From Pseudomonas fluorescens Q2-87 (GTDB lineage: Bacteria > Pseudomonadota > Gammaproteobacteria > Pseudomonadales > Pseudomonadaceae): a stretch of DNA of 64,000 bases. Where the stretch lies: positions 4,344,556 to 4,408,555 of the forward strand of contig NZ_CM001558.1 of NCBI RefSeq assembly GCF_000281895.1, read 5' to 3'. The position numbers were made by a program, and so were the translations under genes. Under the pieces are notes generated by a model that was not told the DNA's origin, made no database searches, and saw nothing but the letters and a program-made list of their open reading frames with translations. This document shows positions 22,208-40,699 of this stretch, piece after piece (the first letter of the stretch is position 1; every line of letters starts with the position of its first letter).

Positions 22208-23080
22208 TTATTTCGGTTTCTGGACCGGCTTGGTGCCGCCCAGGTGTTTTGCCCCGCCGCTGGCGATCAACTCGGCCAACTCGGAAACGTCCAGCAAGGC
22301 GCACATGTGTTCGATCACCGTACCGGCCAACCATGGCCGCTGCCCTCGATGGCTGCGCCACTTGATCTCGTTCGGGTCCAGGCGCAGCGAGCGGCTGACC
22401 TGATGCACCGCTAGCCCCCACTCGTAACCCTGTACCGAAATCACGTATTGCAGGCCCTGGCGAAAATCATCGCGATAACGGTCCGGCATCACCCATCGCG
22501 CGGTATCCAGCACCTTCAGGTTGCCGGCCTGGCTCGGCAGGATTCCGAGGAACCATTCCGGCTGGCCGAACAACGGCGTCAGTTCTTGCCCGGCCAGGGA
22601 ATAAATCGATCCCAGGCATACCAGCGGCACCGCCAGGGTCAACCCGGCCACATCGAACAACAGGCACTCGAACGGCTCGGCGGCCCAGGCCGGACGGTCA
22701 TCGCCCGGCACCGGCGGCGGCGGAGTGCTCGGCGGCAGGTGGATTTCCACCACCGGCGTCACCAGCCCCTGCAGTAACGGTGCAACGGTCGAGACCGGCG
22801 CCAGGATCGGCGCTGGCGCGTCCATTACCGCCACTGGCGGCTTGACGAACGCTGCCTCGACCGCCGCGGTCAACACAGTCACCTGCGCGTCACGGGCCTG
22901 CTCTTCGAGCACGGCGGCTTGAAATTCATCCAACTCACCCGGGGCCTGAACGGTTTCGGGCAATGCCTCGATCACGCTCGGCTCAGGTGGCAATTCTTCG
23001 GTCGCTTCCTGCAACAGCCCGTCCAGATAGGACTGCAGGGCCATTTGCGGACGCGAGGTCGTCTTTATCGGCCGGTTCAT
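22208..23080 (-). CDS. parP: CheW-domain protein, ParP-like chemotaxis array partner
   Basis: A 290-residue protein with a short N-terminal helix (MALQSYLDGLLQEATEE), a long acidic/Pro-rich linker to about residue 140, and a C-terminal CheW-like domain (CLLFDVAGLTLAVPLVCLG, YVISVQGYEWGLAVHQVSRS). In Vibrio the equivalent ParP binds CheA and ParC and keeps arrays at the pole. The parC neighbour, directly upstream, supports the same role. The symbol is by analogy. The start at 23080 was chosen from family length; its ribosome-binding site is weak. Confidence 0.8.
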   Translation of the reverse strand: MNRPIKTTSRPQMALQSYLDGLLQEATEELPPEPSVIEALPETVQAPGELDEFQAAVLEEQARDAQVTVLTAAVEAAFVKPPVAVMDAPAPILAPVSTVAPLLQGLVTPVVEIHLPPSTPPPPVPGDDRPAWAAEPFECLLFDVAGLTLAVPLVCLGSIYSLAGQELTPLFGQPEWFLGILPSQAGNLKVLDTARWVMPDRYRDDFRQGLQYVISVQGYEWGLAVHQVSRSLRLDPNEIKWRSHRGQRPWLAGTVIEHMCALLDVSELAELIASGGAKHLGGTKPVQKPK

Positions 23081-23176
23081 GGGAACAGTGCGCCACTTGA
23101 AAAGGTTATCGGCATGAATGCGCCAGGACTTGAGCGCTCGCAAGCGAACGCGATGCCTGTGGAGAGCCTGGTCACC

Positions 23177-23968
23177 TTAAGCCACCTGCTGGGGAACGAG
23201 TTGTTGGGCCAGCAGGTGCTTGAGCAGCGCGCGGTAGGCCAGCACACCACGGCTCTTGCCATCAAATTGTGAAGGGGTCACGCCGGCACGACTGGCATCG
23301 CGCAGGCGGGTATCGACCGGTATGTAGCCCTGCCAGATGTCGTCCGGGTACATGTCCCGCAATACGCGCAGGGTCCCCAGGGACGCCTGGGTGCGGCGGT
23401 CGAACAGGGTCGGCACGATATTGAAGGCCAGGGTTTGCTTGCGCGAACGGTTGACCATCGCCAGGGTATTGACCATGCGCTCCAGGCCTTTCACCGCCAA
23501 GTGTTCGGTCTGCACCGGAATCACCAATTGCTGGCTGGCTGCCAGGGCGTTGACCATGAGCAGCCCCAGCAGCGGCGGGCTGTCGATAATCGCGTAATCG
23601 AAATCCTGCCACAGTTGTGCCAGAGTCTTGGCGATCACCAGGCCGAGGCCGCTCTGTCCTGGCGACTGACGCTCCAGGGTGGCCAGGGCGGTGCTCGACG
23701 GCAGCAGGGAAATCCGCTCGTCGCTGGTGGACAGCAGCAATTGCCCCGGCAAGCCTTCGGGCACGGTGCCCTTATGCAGGAACAGGTCGTAATTGCTGTG
23801 TTCCAGGGTATCGGGATCGTAGCCAAAGTAACTGGTCATGGAGCCGTGGGGGTCCAGATCGACGATGACCACGCGCTTGCCCGCCTCGGCCAGCAATCCG
23901 GCTAAAGCGATGGAAGATGTGGTTTTGCCCACACCACCTTTTTGATTGGCGACTGCCCAGACTCTCAT
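23177..23968 (-). CDS. parC: ParA-type ATPase (ParC-like), chemotaxis localisation
   Basis: A 263-residue ParA/MinD-type ATPase with deviant Walker A at residues 8-16 (NQKGGVGKT), the DLDPHGSMTSYF switch region and IIDSPPLLGLLMVNAL. The partner genes are chemotactic (motD upstream, parP downstream), not chromosomal parB, so the likely job is polar placement of chemotaxis arrays as shown for Vibrio ParC. I start it at the ATG at 23968, just before the Walker motif; the upstream open frame is rejected. Do not confuse it with topoisomerase IV subunit ParC. Confidence 0.85.
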   Translation of the reverse strand: MRVWAVANQKGGVGKTTSSIALAGLLAEAGKRVVIVDLDPHGSMTSYFGYDPDTLEHSNYDLFLHKGTVPEGLPGQLLLSTSDERISLLPSSTALATLERQSPGQSGLGLVIAKTLAQLWQDFDYAIIDSPPLLGLLMVNALAASQQLVIPVQTEHLAVKGLERMVNTLAMVNRSRKQTLAFNIVPTLFDRRTQASLGTLRVLRDMYPDDIWQGYIPVDTRLRDASRAGVTPSQFDGKSRGVLAYRALLKHLLAQQLVPQQVA

Positions 23969-24017
23969 TCGGATCGTTCCTCCCGGCCGAAACAGGCTCG
24001 ACCGAGAAATAGCTCGG

Positions 24018-24902
24018 TTATAAAGCGGGTGACGGAGAATTGACGGCACTCTGTCTTCCCGGCGACTTGACCGGGGCCGGTGCAGTTTGTGTGCCAGCAC
24101 GCTTCAATGCCGCATCGGGTTTTGCATTGGCCGTACCGGTACCCGTCAGGCTGCGGCGGACGTCGAGGTTGCGCGACACCACCAGCACCACTCGCCGGTT
24201 GCGCGCGCGCCCCTCGACAGTAGCGTTGTTGGCCACCGGCTGGAACTCGCCATAGCCTACCGAGGCCAGGCGACCGGGGTTCACGCCCTGCATGGCGAGC
24301 ATGCGGACGATGCTCGCCGAACGGGCCGAAGACAGCTCCCAGTTGGTCGGATACTGCGCGGTACGGATCGGCTGGTCGTCGGTAAAGCCTTCGACATGGA
24401 TCGGGTTGTCGAATGGCTTCAGGATCGCCGCCACTTTGTCGACGATGTTGAAGGCCAGGTCGCTGGGCATGGCATCACCACTGCCGAACAACAGGCTGGA
24501 ATTGAGTTCGATCTCGACCCACAGTTCGTTGCCGCGTACCGTCATCTGGTTGGAGCTGATCAGGTCACCGAACGCGGCGCTGATGTCATCGGCAATGCTT
24601 TTCAACGGATCGCTGCCGCCGGCGATACCGGTATCGACCTGATCGGTGTCCTTGACCAGCGGCTTGGCCGGGGTCGTGCTCTTGGGCCGCTCATCGCCGA
24701 TGGGAATGGGCTTGAGGGCACGATCGGAGTCGGTGAAGACGCCGATCAGCGCCTCGGAAATAACCTTGTACTTGCCTTCGTTGACCGACGAGATCGAATA
24801 CATGACCACGAAAAAGGCAAACAGCAGTGTGATGAAGTCGGCGTAGGAAACCAGCCAACGTTCATGATTGACGTGTTCTTCAGTGTGCCTGCGACGTGCC
24901 AT
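24018..24902 (-). CDS. motD: MotD, flagellar stator peptidoglycan-anchoring subunit
   Basis: A 294-residue MotB-family protein. It has a short basic N-terminus and one membrane helix with the proton-binding Asp (VSYADFITLLFAFFVVMYS). An OmpA/MotB peptidoglycan-binding domain follows (VEGFTDDQPI, NWELSSARSASIVRML, LASVGYGEFQPVANN, RARNRRVVLVV). The C-terminal Ala/Pro-rich tail is extra. It pairs with motC 15 bases upstream as the second Pseudomonas stator, MotCD, used for swarming and motion in viscous media. Confidence 0.93.
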   Translation of the reverse strand: MARRRHTEEHVNHERWLVSYADFITLLFAFFVVMYSISSVNEGKYKVISEALIGVFTDSDRALKPIPIGDERPKSTTPAKPLVKDTDQVDTGIAGGSDPLKSIADDISAAFGDLISSNQMTVRGNELWVEIELNSSLLFGSGDAMPSDLAFNIVDKVAAILKPFDNPIHVEGFTDDQPIRTAQYPTNWELSSARSASIVRMLAMQGVNPGRLASVGYGEFQPVANNATVEGRARNRRVVLVVSRNLDVRRSLTGTGTANAKPDAALKRAGTQTAPAPVKSPGRQSAVNSPSPAL

Positions 24903-26845: not shown

Positions 26846-29104
26846 TCAAATACGCCGTGCGGCGTAGCGCTTGAGCATGCTTGGCACATCGAGAATCAAC
26901 GCGATGCGGCCGTCGCCGGTGATGGTGGCGCCGGACATGCCCGGGGTGCCTTGGAGCATCTTGCCCAACGGCTTGATGACCACTTCTTCCTGGCCCACCA
27001 ACTGGTCGACGACAAAGCCGATCCGCTGGGTGCCCACCGAAAGGATCACCACATGGCCTTCGCCCTGTTCCACGTGAGCCGCAGAGCTGACCAGCCAGCG
27101 CTTGAGGTAGAACAACGGCAGTGCCTTGTCCCGCACGATCACCACTTCCTGGCCGTCCACCACGTTGGTGCGCGACAGGTCGAGGTGGAAAATCTCGTTG
27201 ACGTTGACTAGCGGGAAGGCGAACGCCTGGTTGCCCAGCATCACCATCAGGGTTGGCATGATCGCCAGGGTCAGCGGGACCTTGATGACGATCTTCGAGC
27301 CCTTGCCCTTGGTCGAGTAGATGTTGATGGTGCCATTGAGCTGGGCGATCTTGGTTTTCACCACGTCCATGCCCACGCCACGTCCGGAGACGTCGGAAAT
27401 TTCGGTCTTGGTCGAGAAGCCTGGTGCGAAGATCAGGTTAAAGCAATCCGACTCGCTGAGCCGGTCCGCCGCGTCCTTGTCCATCAGGCCTTTCTTCACG
27501 GCGATACCGCGCAGGACATCAGCGTCCATGCCCTTGCCGTCATCGGAGATGGACAACAGGATGTGGTCGCCTTCCTGTTCAGCCGACAGGATGACCTTGC
27601 CGCTGCGGGGCTTGCCCATCGCTTCGCGGTCAGCCGGCTCTTCGATACCGTGGTCGACCGAGTTGCGCACCAAGTGGACCAATGGGTCGGCCAGGGCCTC
27701 GACAAGGTTCTTGTCCAGGTCGGTCTCTTCGCCCACCAGTTCCAGATTGATTTCTTTCTTGAGCTGGCGAGCCAGGTCACGAACCAGGCGCGGGAAGCGC
27801 CCGAAGACTTTCTTGATCGGCTGCATCCGCGTCTTCATGACGGCGGTCTGCAGGTCGGCCGTGACCACGTCGAGGTTCGACACGGCCTTGGACATGGCTT
27901 CGTCCTGGCTGTTGAGGCCCAGGCGAACCAGGCGGTTACGCACCAGCACCAGTTCGCCGACCATGTTCATGATCTCGTCCAGGCGCGCAGTGTCGACCCG
28001 CACAGTGGTCTCGGCTTCGCTGGCGGGTTTTTCCGCCGGCGCAGCCGCAGGGGCACGGGCCGGCGCCGGGGCAGCTGCAGCGGCAGGCTTGGGGGCCTCG
28101 GCTTTCGGCTCCGGTGCCTTGGCGGCGGGTTTAGGCGCTGCCTTGGCCGCGGGTGCGACGGTGGCGGCGGGCGCAACAGAAGCCGTACCGACTTCGCTGA
28201 ACTTGCCTTTGCCGTGCAGCTCGTCGAGCAGCGACTCGAATTCGTGGTCGCTGATCAGGTCGCTGCCGGCCGCAGCAGCGGCAGGCTTGGCCGGAGTCGG
28301 CGCGGAAGCGATGGCCGAATCCAGCGCGTCAACGGCAAAGGTGCCCTTGCCGTGCAACTGATCGAGCAGCGCTTCGAATTCATCATCGGTGATGTCGGAG
28401 TTGTCGCCGGCCGCTTTCGGCGCGGCTGGGGTCGCCGGGGCTGCCGCAGGAACGACGGCATCGACCGCGAACTGGCCCTTGCCATGCAACTGATCGAGCA
28501 GTGACTCGAACTCAGCGTCGGTGATTTCATCGCTGCCAGCAGCAGAGGCCGCCGGCGCAGCAGGGGCGACAGGAGCGGCTGGTGCCTCGGCCTCGGCCTT
28601 GACGGCGTTCAGCGAGTCCAGCAGTTGTTCGAATTCATTATCGGTGATGTCACCCGATGCTTCGGCGACCGGTTCTTCAACGATCGTCTCGACCACCGGT
28701 GCGGCGTCAGCCGATTGCGGCTCGGCCAGGCGCGACAGCGCGGCAAGCAACTCAGGGGTGGCCGGGGTAATCGGCGAGCGCTCACGCACTTCGCTGAACA
28801 TGCTGTTGACCGCATCCAGCGCTTCAAGCACCACGTCCATCAATTCCGAATCGACGCGTCGCTCACCCTTGCGCAGGATGTCGAACACGTTTTCGGCAAT
28901 GTGGCAGCACTCCACCAGCTCATTGAGCTGGAGGAAGCCGGCGCCTCCTTTTACAGTGTGGAAACCGCGAAAAATTGCATTGAGCAGATCTGCATCATCC
29001 GGTCGGCTTTCCAGCTCGACCAGTTGCTCAGACAGTTGCTCTAGAATCTCGCCGGCCTCAACCAGGAAATCCTGAAGGATCTCTTCATCGGCGCCGAAGC
29101 TCAT
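26846..29104 (-). CDS. cheA: CheA, chemotaxis histidine kinase
   Basis: A 752-residue kinase. The P1 domain carries phospho-acceptor His49 (RGFHTVKGGAGF). Dimerisation (P3), ATPase (P4, with LVHLVRNSVDHGIE, SDDGKGMD and GRGVGMDVV) and CheW-like P5 domains fill residues about 370-752. I see no recognisable P2 domain. Instead the Ala/Pro-rich linker between P1 and P3 has four spaced copies (residues about 151-168, 191-212, 236-256 and 281-302) of a peptide of the form ITDxEFExLLDQLHGKG, which resembles the FliM CheY-binding peptide. It lies within the cheYZAB order. Confidence 0.95.
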   Translation of the reverse strand: MSFGADEEILQDFLVEAGEILEQLSEQLVELESRPDDADLLNAIFRGFHTVKGGAGFLQLNELVECCHIAENVFDILRKGERRVDSELMDVVLEALDAVNSMFSEVRERSPITPATPELLAALSRLAEPQSADAAPVVETIVEEPVAEASGDITDNEFEQLLDSLNAVKAEAEAPAAPVAPAAPAASAAGSDEITDAEFESLLDQLHGKGQFAVDAVVPAAAPATPAAPKAAGDNSDITDDEFEALLDQLHGKGTFAVDALDSAIASAPTPAKPAAAAAGSDLISDHEFESLLDELHGKGKFSEVGTASVAPAATVAPAAKAAPKPAAKAPEPKAEAPKPAAAAAPAPARAPAAAPAEKPASEAETTVRVDTARLDEIMNMVGELVLVRNRLVRLGLNSQDEAMSKAVSNLDVVTADLQTAVMKTRMQPIKKVFGRFPRLVRDLARQLKKEINLELVGEETDLDKNLVEALADPLVHLVRNSVDHGIEEPADREAMGKPRSGKVILSAEQEGDHILLSISDDGKGMDADVLRGIAVKKGLMDKDAADRLSESDCFNLIFAPGFSTKTEISDVSGRGVGMDVVKTKIAQLNGTINIYSTKGKGSKIVIKVPLTLAIMPTLMVMLGNQAFAFPLVNVNEIFHLDLSRTNVVDGQEVVIVRDKALPLFYLKRWLVSSAAHVEQGEGHVVILSVGTQRIGFVVDQLVGQEEVVIKPLGKMLQGTPGMSGATITGDGRIALILDVPSMLKRYAARRI
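28196..28654 (-). repeat. Four-copy FliM-like peptide repeat in the CheA linker
   Basis: Four copies, spaced about 40-45 residues apart, read GDITDNEFEQLLDSLNAVK, DEITDAEFESLLDQLHGKG, SDITDDEFEALLDQLHGKG and SDLISDHEFESLLDELHGKG. They are separated by Ala/Pro linkers. The copies match FliM residues 7-18 (LSQDEIDALLHG) at the acidic, hydrophobic and double-Leu positions. Confidence 0.85.
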
Positions 29105-29134: not shown

Positions 29135-29920
29135 TCAGAATCCAAGGCTGGACAGCAAATCGTCCACATCGTCCTGACCGGACATAACGTCTTCTCTTTT
29201 ATCGGCATGAATCTGCGGACCTTCACCCTGAGAGAGATGTTTTTGTGGATCTTTTTCAGCAAGTATCGCTTCACGGTCGTGTTCGATGCCTGCAAAGCGG
29301 TCGACCTGGCTGGCCATCAACACCAGTTTGAGCAGATTGCTTTCCACTTCGGTGACCAGTTGGGTCACACGCTTGATTACCTGGCCTGTCAGGTCCTGAT
29401 AGTCCTGGGCCAGCAGAATGTCATTGAGGTTGCTCGCCACCGCACGGTTCTCGGTGCTGCTGCGCGTCAGGAAACCGTCGACTCGACGGGCCAGTTCGCG
29501 AAACTCCTCGGCACCCACTTCGCGGCGCATGAAGCGGCCCCAGTCGGTGCTCAGGGCCTGGGCTTCTTCGCTCAGTCCATTGACCAACGGGGTAGCGCTT
29601 TCCACCAGGTCCATGGTGCGGTTGGCCGCGGCCTCGGTGAGCTTGACCACATAACCCAGGCGCTCGGTGGCGTCAGTGATCTGCGAGACTTCCTCGGCCT
29701 GCGGCATGTGCGGGTCGATCTGGAAATTGACGATCGCACTGTGCAGTTCACGGGTGAGCTTGCCGACTTCCTGGTACAGACCACGATCGCGGGTCTGGTT
29801 GAGCTCATGAATCATTTGAACCGCATCACCGAAGCGGCCCTTTTCAAGGCTGTCGACCAGTTCGCGGGCATGTTTTTTCAGGGTCGATTCGAAATCGCCC
29901 ATTGAAGATTCGTTATCCAT
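29135..29920 (-). CDS. cheZ: CheZ, CheY-phosphate phosphatase
   Basis: A 261-residue, mostly helical protein. The active-site helix is present (LAQDYQDLTGQVIKRV, with the Asp and Gln that attack phospho-CheY). The C-terminal tail ends in DDVDDLLSSLGF, the amphipathic CheY-binding peptide typical of CheZ. It starts 18 bases after the cheY stop and is cotranscribed with it. Confidence 0.94.
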   Translation of the reverse strand: MDNESSMGDFESTLKKHARELVDSLEKGRFGDAVQMIHELNQTRDRGLYQEVGKLTRELHSAIVNFQIDPHMPQAEEVSQITDATERLGYVVKLTEAAANRTMDLVESATPLVNGLSEEAQALSTDWGRFMRREVGAEEFRELARRVDGFLTRSSTENRAVASNLNDILLAQDYQDLTGQVIKRVTQLVTEVESNLLKLVLMASQVDRFAGIEHDREAILAEKDPQKHLSQGEGPQIHADKREDVMSGQDDVDDLLSSLGF

Positions 29921-29938: not shown

Positions 29939-30310
29939 TTAACCGATGCGTTCAAAGATTTTTTCGATCTTCTCTTTCAACGCCTGGGCCGTGAAGGGTT
30001 TGACCACGTAGCCGTTCACACCGGCCTGGGCCGCTTCGATGATCTGCTCGCGCTTGGCTTCGGCGGTGACCATCAGCACCGGGAGGTGCTTGAGTTTTTC
30101 ATCGGCGCGCACGTGGCGCAGCAAGTCGATACCGGTCATGCCGGGCATGTTCCAGTCAGTCACCAGAAAGTCGATGCTCCCGCTGTTGAGGACCGGGATG
30201 GCAGTAGTGCCATCGTCGGCCTCGACCGTGTTGGTGAACCCAAGGTCACGCAACAGGTTCTTAATGATCCGCCGCATCGTTGAGAAGTCATCAACGATGA
30301 GGATTTTCAT
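29939..30310 (-). CDS. cheY: CheY, chemotaxis response regulator
   Basis: A 123-residue single receiver domain with the acidic pocket (VDDFS), phospho-acceptor Asp52 ([12 protein letters not shown]), a switch Thr (LMVTAEAK) and the conserved Lys (VVKPF). Phospho-CheY binds FliM to change flagellar rotation. It starts at 30310; an upstream in-frame extension to 30334 is less likely. The 163 bases to fliA may hold a promoter, but I see no clear sigma-28 box there. Confidence 0.95.
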
Positions 30311-30473
30311 GTTCTTGTCCAATTCGACCTCCAAGCAGTCTTAAACGCGTCCAGCACCTGAACGCGCCATTTCAATCAATCCGGCACAACACTCGACAAC
30401 GGTACGGAGCACAACGAATGACGACTGGTACGGCGCACGCCATACCTGTCTTGCCATGTCTCCACACTGCCTG

Positions 30474-39730: not shown

Positions 39731-40699
39731 TCAGCGGCGTTCGATCGGCTCGATCACCTGCAACGCCAGGTTGCCTTTGTGAGAGCCCATCTTGACCTTG
39801 AAGGCCGGTACGCCATTGGCGCGCATGATCATGTCTTCGGGCATCTCGACGGGGATGATGTCCCCCGGCTGCATGTGCAGGATGTCCCGCAGGCGCAATT
39901 GACGACGAGCGACCGTCGCACCGATCGGCACGTCGACGTCCAGCACGTCCTGGCGCAGCGCGTTGATCCAGCGCTCGTCCTGGTCGTCGAGGTCCGACTG
40001 GAAACCGGCGTCGAGCATTTCACGTACTGGCTCGATCATCGAGTACGGCATGGTCACATGCAGGTCGCCGCCACCGCCATCGAGTTCGATGTGGAAGGTC
40101 GAGACCACAATGGCTTCGCTCGGCCCGACGATGTTGGCCATGGCCGGGTTCACTTCCGAGTTGATGTACTCGAAGTTCACTTCCATGATCGCCTGCCAGG
40201 CTTCTTTCAGGTCGACGAAAGCCTGCTCCAGCACCATGCGCACTACCCGCAACTCGGTTGGGGTGAATTCACGGCCTTCGATCTTGGCGTGGCGACCATC
40301 ACCACCAAAGAAGTTGTCCACCAGCTTGAACACCAGCTTGGCGTCAAGGATGAACAGTGCCGTGCCGCGCAACGGTTTGATCTTCACCAGGTTGAGGCTG
40401 GTGGGTACGTACAGCGAGTGCACGTATTCACCGAACTTCATCACCTGCACGCCACCAACGGCCACGTCGGCGGAGCGGCGCAGCATGTTGAACATGCTGA
40501 TGCGGGTGTAGCGGGCGAAACGCTCGTTGATCATTTCCAGGGTCGGCATGCGTCCGCGAACGATGCGATCCTGGCTGGTCAGGTCGTAGCTTTTGACGCT
40601 GCCCGGTTCAGCAGCGTTTTCGGTTTGCACCAGGCCGTCGTCGACACCGTGCAACAGCGCGTCGATTTCGTCCTGGGACAACAGGTCCTGCACGGCCAT
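39731..40699 (-). CDS. fliM: FliM, flagellar motor switch protein
   Basis: A 322-residue C-ring protein. The N-terminal CheY-binding peptide (LSQDEIDALLHG, residues 7-18) is followed by the CheC-like middle domain and a C-terminal SpoA domain (VARRQLRLRDILHMQPGDII). Phospho-CheY binding here reverses or pauses the motor. It starts 9 bases after fliL. Confidence 0.96.
   Translation of the reverse strand: MAVQDLLSQDEIDALLHGVDDGLVQTENAAEPGSVKSYDLTSQDRIVRGRMPTLEMINERFARYTRISMFNMLRRSADVAVGGVQVMKFGEYVHSLYVPTSLNLVKIKPLRGTALFILDAKLVFKLVDNFFGGDGRHAKIEGREFTPTELRVVRMVLEQAFVDLKEAWQAIMEVNFEYINSEVNPAMANIVGPSEAIVVSTFHIELDGGGGDLHVTMPYSMIEPVREMLDAGFQSDLDDQDERWINALRQDVLDVDVPIGATVARRQLRLRDILHMQPGDIIPVEMPEDMIMRANGVPAFKVKMGSHKGNLALQVIEPIERR

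Follow-up and report, generated by a model that had tools for sequence, protein, structure and literature searches.

Tandem FliM-like peptides as putative CheY-docking sites in the linker of a CheA class without a recognisable P2 domain

How chemotaxis kinases that lack a P2 domain find the response regulator CheY is a question raised by the CheA of the stretch analysed here (hereafter the window), 64,000 nucleotides of the Pseudomonas fluorescens Q2-87 genome that form a flagellar and chemotaxis region. This CheA matches the Pfam models Hpt, H-kinase_dim, HATPase_c and CheW, and no Pfam match to a P2 or CheY-binding domain was found in it. Between P1 and P3 it carries an Ala/Pro linker with four copies of a short motif, whose consensus is I-(T/S)-D-x-E-F-E-x-L-L-D-x-L. 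We propose that this linker is a multivalent series of putative docking peptides for the CheY receiver, which in CheAs of this class would stand in for a folded P2 domain, and we give this reading a probability of about 0.6. A docking array would offer a concrete and testable answer for the class, which we found in Pseudomonas, Vibrio, Shewanella, Aeromonas and Marinobacter. The kinase and its repeats are laid out as follows (positions in the window):

26846..29104, minus strand: cheA, 752 amino acids, with P1 (Hpt, residues 8-100), linker, P3 (366-425), P4 (472-612) and P5 (619-746), from Pfam
28010..28714, minus strand: Ala/Pro linker of CheA, residues 131-365, predicted by AlphaFold2 to be disordered except for four short helices
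28598..28657, minus strand: copy 1, CheA residues 150-169, SGDITDNEFEQLLDSLNAVK, AlphaFold2 helix 155-171
28475..28534, minus strand: copy 2, CheA residues 191-210, SDEITDAEFESLLDQLHGKG, AlphaFold2 helix 196-206
28343..28402, minus strand: copy 3, CheA residues 235-254, NSDITDDEFEALLDQLHGKG, AlphaFold2 helix 240-250
28205..28264, minus strand: copy 4, CheA residues 281-300, SDLISDHEFESLLDELHGKG, AlphaFold2 helix 286-296

The first-pass annotation of this DNA had described four copies of (I/L)(T/S)D-x-EFE-x-LLDxL in the linker; the four copies are confirmed, except that I precedes the T/S residue in all of them and L in none. An LHGKG tail is present in copies 2-4 and missing from copy 1. When residues 1-378 were modelled with AlphaFold2 (76 sequences), P1 was predicted with a local distance difference test score (pLDDT) of about 97, and the linker helices were predicted exclusively at the four copies, with ten-residue pLDDT means of 72-84 at the copies versus 46-63 elsewhere in the linker. 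The modelled linker has no strands, and nothing in it resembles the alpha/beta fold of a P2 domain. That a P2 domain is unrecognisable in this linker, as had been claimed, is thus borne out both by Pfam and by the predicted fold, and the P2-like structure that the first-pass annotation had named as refuting its proposal did not appear.

The nearest named CheAs, those of Pseudomonas kilonensis and others, are about 90% identical to that of the window. Among the 120 closest homologs listed (8,000 were scored, and the window's own protein is included), the copy number is four in every one (120/120), and mean identity to the window is 97.8% in motif columns and 83.6% in spacers. Their linkers show 552 deleted and 492 inserted residues, all of them outside the motif copies. 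As a test of whether the motif exceeds chance this is weak, because all of these proteins are near relatives. The linker alignment across Pseudomonas that had been suggested as a check shows, in these 120 homologs, the motif kept with a copy number that does not vary, and the accompanying idea that copy number tunes signal flow is unsupported within this genus.

Beyond close relatives, we drew on 232 genomes sampled from the class. The kinase core alone, a motif-free query, matches a CheA at E<=1e-60 in 154 of them; 72 loci were hand-picked from the list of these 154, some kin and cut contigs being skipped. The motif is present in 64 of the 66 loci with the best kinase-core matches (L004-L069) and absent from all six lower-scoring ones (L070-L075). 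By scan, three of the 66 have no copy, four have one, 29 two, 27 three and three four. The zeros are L012, in which the CheA frame is broken, L058, in which it is split by masked bases and two copies were found in the other piece, and L068, which was judged by eye to have degenerate copies only. Successive copies are about 41 residues apart (median of 215 pairs, range 26-83). At least one copy was likewise found in 79 of the 80 top-ranked named loci among 580 relatives, a set that is biased because its ranking query carried two copies; the motif-bearing ones include Shewanella, Aeromonas sobria, Vibrio renipiscarius, Marinobacter, Methylophaga, Thiomicrorhabdus and Stenotrophomonas. The repeats are thus confirmed and much broader than first noted: the motif is not peculiar to Pseudomonas and occurs in many related bacteria, across which copy number does vary, from one to four.

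A longer version of the pattern occurs 339 times in 155 CheA open reading frames of 152 fetched loci, and three times in 1,935,881 residues of other open reading frames, all three in one CheW-family protein. A hidden Markov model (HMM) of the motif, to which the four copies of the window contributed, matches 41 of the 43 genomes searched, and its matches at E<=0.1 in these genomes fall by position in the expected CheA, with one weak exception; the two genomes without a match, G217 and G082, hold the motif-less CheAs L075 and L074. The exception, a receiver/helix-turn-helix-looking protein of G045 (L226:416-1186, E 0.025), was taken as a chance match. In a phylum sample of 150 genomes, 22 are motif-bearing, with open frames of 226-771 amino acids, and all 22 are of the window's class, the classes of the 108 unmatched genomes not having been counted. 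A viral scan with a CheA query gave no match.

These distributions bear on the possibility that the repeats are generic N-capped amphipathic helices with a structural role in the linker and no specific ligand. Such a view could point to SHOCT, another short-helix Pfam model: of 65 pieces that contain the linker, 49 match it at E<=0.01. Against it, the F and LL residues hardly vary in dozens of families and the pattern is all but restricted to CheA, and we regard a generic helix as highly improbable. SHOCT (PF09851) gives full-length CheA 24.8 bits, against a gathering cut-off of 27, and the N-terminal piece 29.5; the label is probably spurious because the best stretch, which is not C-terminal, matches just 14 of the 28 model positions. 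Databases tag the motif as SHOCT in many Pseudomonas CheAs, copy 3 of the window (28343-28402) included.

What stands at the place of P2 in other CheAs was seen in 20 proteins from the lower part of the core-match list (core identity about 41-47%), which we assigned to other classes; in 11 cases the genome also contributes a motif-bearing CheA to the sample. None of the 20 has the motif, and in 19 the P2 place is occupied by 87-89 conserved residues. By position and look these stretches are putative P2 domains, an identity that profile comparisons did not establish: a profile of the 19 matched none of the P2 structures in the PDB set, and its hhalign match to three other P2-place pieces was weak (P 0.0035, probability 9%). 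The CheA of G217 (L075) has a clear Pfam CheY-binding domain at the same place. In the class studied here, none of 65 CheAs has a Pfam P2 or CheY-binding match at E<=0.01, with models that are insensitive, having found the domain in one of 26 other CheAs; Pfam was dropped as a P2 detector for this reason. A 2023 survey (PMC10782961) also states that Pfam seldom detects P2, and adds that more than half of all CheAs are without P2 and have an extended unstructured region instead. In PMC11978298, the CheA of P. putida is treated as having a CheY-binding (YB/P2) domain; the segment so called may be the motif linker.

The proposal that CheY is the client comes from the likeness of the repeats to peptides of two other proteins encoded in the window, FliM and CheZ. 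The C-terminal peptide of CheZ binds CheY. The features concerned are:

29939..30334, minus strand: cheY, the proposed client, from Pfam Response_reg
29138..29182, minus strand: C-terminal peptide of CheZ, SGQDDVDDLLSSLGF, with a DD-phi-D-x-LL core, from the sequence
40652..40681, minus strand: N-terminal peptide of FliM, LSQDEIDALL, residues 7-16, from the sequence and a matrix score

CheY binding by the FliM N-terminal peptide is reported in PMC9126983, and the CheZ C-terminal peptide is named as a CheY binder in PMC12270135. A matrix built from CheA linkers alone gives the FliM N-terminus of the window, MAVQDLLSQDEIDALLHG, a score of 11.0 bits. Among 14,233 other 25-residue segments (from stop-to-stop frames of more than 300 amino acids in the fetched loci, false frames included), two reach this score, both of them pieces of the split L058 CheA frame; the margin over background is nevertheless small, because two other segments, the next best, reach 10.7 bits. 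FliM was matched in 62 of 63 genomes, and 39 of the 40 N-termini fetched from these score at least 8 with the CheA matrix. For CheZ, we scored the tails of 120 proteins with a CheZ match of at least 100 bits, out of 139 loci with any match (those with weaker matches, Xanthomonadaceae among them, were left out): 115 of the 120 exceed the 99.9th background percentile with a matrix built from FliM, and 67 exceed the 99th with the CheA matrix.

A core common to the three families, (D/E)(D/E)-phi-(D/E)-x-L-L, is found in 39 of 40 FliM N-termini and 113 of 120 CheZ C-termini, and a strict-core copy is missing from 13 of 151 CheA frames. Background frames hold eight matches in 746,014 residues (one FliM, three in one CheW-family protein and four that look like chance). 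At the phi position FliM has I in 35 cases and V in four, CheZ has V throughout (113), and the 300 strict-core copies in the 151 CheA frames have F without exception. These counts describe rather than test, because the pattern was chosen after all three families had been seen. The likeness of the linker motif to FliM, part of the original proposal, is upheld by the matrix made from CheA only, and it extends to CheZ tails through the common core.

The alpha4-beta5-alpha5 face of CheY serves FliM, CheZ and P2. We infer that each copy would form a short helix with an N-cap T/S-x-x-E, exposing I, F and L-L, and would bind this same face. Spaced by some 41 residues along a flexible tether, the copies would hold CheY near P1 and so could affect phosphotransfer, and F at phi, where FliM has I or V and CheZ V, would set the preference between CheY and CheY-P; in ParP-bearing lineages, ParP may use the same repeats. 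CheY docking seems plausible and is the best supported reading. Besides the likeness to FliM and CheZ, it is favoured by the absence of the motif from the 20 lower-similarity CheAs, 19 of which have the conserved P2-place stretch, by its persistence in genomes without detectable ParP, and by the confinement of the predicted linker helices to the four copies. According to PMC7184735, ten CheY positions changed on the move from F6 to F7 CheA, and three of them face P2 (R92K, Q94N, V103A). These changes are consistent with CheY docking, although not decisive. With positions matched by eye, the window CheY has R, Q and V where that study lists the changes to K, N and A.

Several results weigh against CheY docking. 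The exception among the 80 named loci, the CheA of Xanthomonas cucurbitae (L167:9850-11647), has only a short linker, which lacks the motif, and a P2 domain is not visible in it by eye either; it is a natural motif loss and, being free of both, indicates that the motif is dispensable. A tethered model of Marinobacter litoralis proteins, in which one CheY, a nonsense spacer and the P1 and linker of CheA were run as a read-through (59 rows), showed no sign of docking, a weak negative: averaged over ten residues, pLDDT is about 59-77 at its three motif helices, with no copy raised. Structure prediction with CheY, of the kind suggested by the first-pass annotation, thus yielded no signal. With the FliM matrix, 64.5% of 155 CheA cores lie above the 99th background percentile and 22.6% above the 99.9th; the short-motif HMM does not list the FliM of the window's genome at E<=10, and the CheZ tail of the window scores poorly with the CheA matrix (-4.7). 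Finally, the literature assigns ParP binding to a region of this linker.

That region is the CheA-LID of Vibrio, which by published accounts binds ParP and occurs only together with ParC and ParP, and which PMC7534058 locates between P2 and P3. The first-pass annotation did not consider it; ParP may be a partner of the linker in addition to CheY or in its place. The repeats could accordingly be the published CheA-LID, binding the CheW-like AIF domain of ParP and tethering arrays to the pole, and their likeness to FliM could be mere common helix chemistry. The window has both partner genes:

22208..23143, minus strand: parP, named from its position and CheW-like end, homolog of the Vibrio CheA-LID partner
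23177..24100, minus strand: parC, ParA-type ATPase

They stand alongside cheA in its operon, and a ParP match of at least 80 bits was found in 49 of the 64 named loci longer than 17 kb. Since the repeats are nearly the sole conserved stretches between P1 and P3, the LID very likely contains them. The window CheA agrees with the LID in having its repeats between P1/P2 and P3 and an operon with parC and parP, but the motif, unlike the LID as described, extends to genomes without a detected ParP. A ParP profile from 33 sequences was searched in 25 whole genomes, chosen since ParP was not or hardly seen at the locus, and in positive controls, and 15 of the 25 have no match above 50 bits. Four of these were set aside: G171, where a diverged ParP-like frame occupies the usual position, and the Xanthomonadaceae G009, G133 and G219, because L067 of G133 has a ParP-like extension on CheW. 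The motif is kept in 10 of the remaining 11 genomes (nine families), ParP absence being by a profile that a more diverged ParP could escape; the eleventh, G020, has degenerate copies only. E8 and F9 are also 100% conserved across a set of 12 loci that we scored as ParP-less and that includes two from Xanthomonadaceae. As the motif persists in genomes without detectable ParP, ParP is unlikely as the general partner, although it may be one partner, and the repeats as a ParP-binding LID seem to us distinctly unlikely.

One array might also serve two clients, CheY everywhere and ParP too where it is present, with the LHG-K-G tail for ParP. The tail is indeed looser in the 12 ParP-less loci than in 52 others (H 0.51 versus 0.74, final G 0.43 versus 0.72), and the E and F of the core are invariant in those 12, L066 and L067 included. 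The tail difference is, however, not large and could reflect shared descent, with which it is confounded, and the 52 comparison loci include cut contigs without visible ParP. We consider two clients rather unlikely, in a judgement that overlaps with the one for CheY docking, so that their odds need not sum to one. The rereading we suggest is that the LID region is a docking array, possibly with two clients.

The array is also found outside CheA. In Pseudoxanthomonas japonensis, a CheW-domain protein encoded after parC (L159:14458-15555, Pfam CheW 3.8e-31) has three motif copies and, by eye, a ParP-like start, and the CheA has one copy by scan. Among 120 listed of 1,585 homologs of this protein, 13 have three copies, 106 two and one a single copy, and the named ones are mostly Pseudoxanthomonas. 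This presence of the CheA motif array in a ParP-like CheW protein is new here. It speaks against the LID alternative, in that the array is carried by the ParP-like protein itself, and an array on a second baseplate protein is more easily explained if it recruits a client, for example CheY, than if its role is specific to CheA; alternatively, the ParP-like protein may bind itself. More tentatively, at somewhat below even odds, FliM, CheZ and this CheA class would share one portable putative CheY-binding code, the common core given above, in which the CheA class would have lost P2 for tandem copies, the residue at phi would set affinity and the CheY/CheY-P preference, and the array could be moved to another baseplate protein.

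A further alternative is that the repeats dock a receiver or array protein other than CheY, such as the CheB receiver, CheZ, CheV or P5. P2 is said to dock CheB besides CheY in PMC11978298, but some motif-bearing loci are without a CheZ or without a CheB match (at the locus only, the rest of these genomes not having been searched), and we hold this alternative to be improbable. In the window, the minus strand carries cheY, cheZ, cheA, cheB, two MotA/MotB-like genes (named by eye), parC, parP and cheW. Among open-licence papers, we found none that names the motif as a CheY site, and six motif strings of 7-8 letters are printed in none of them.

Four known systems invite comparison with these CheA copies under the CheY-docking reading. 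The FliM N-terminal peptide ('EIDALL') is alike in being a short helix with a (D/E)E-phi-(D/E)-A-L-L core and an N-cap S/T, whereas the CheA copies have F at phi, number one to four, are internal to a linker and are putative binders, and in them three residues (such as DQL) separate LL from HG. The CheZ C-terminal peptide has the same core, but differs in its V at phi (113/120 tails), in being single and C-terminal, and in its weaker match to the CheA matrix. The P2 or CheY-binding domain of CheA (PF09078 and its clan partner P2) shares with the linker the place between P1 and P3 and the proposed task, but is folded, whereas the linker offers linear motifs on a stretch predicted to be disordered. 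The CheA-LID of Vibrio belongs to the corresponding linker in this CheA class, Vibrio renipiscarius having three copies, and differs in being described only with ParC and ParP, whereas the motif is present as well in genomes without a ParP match.
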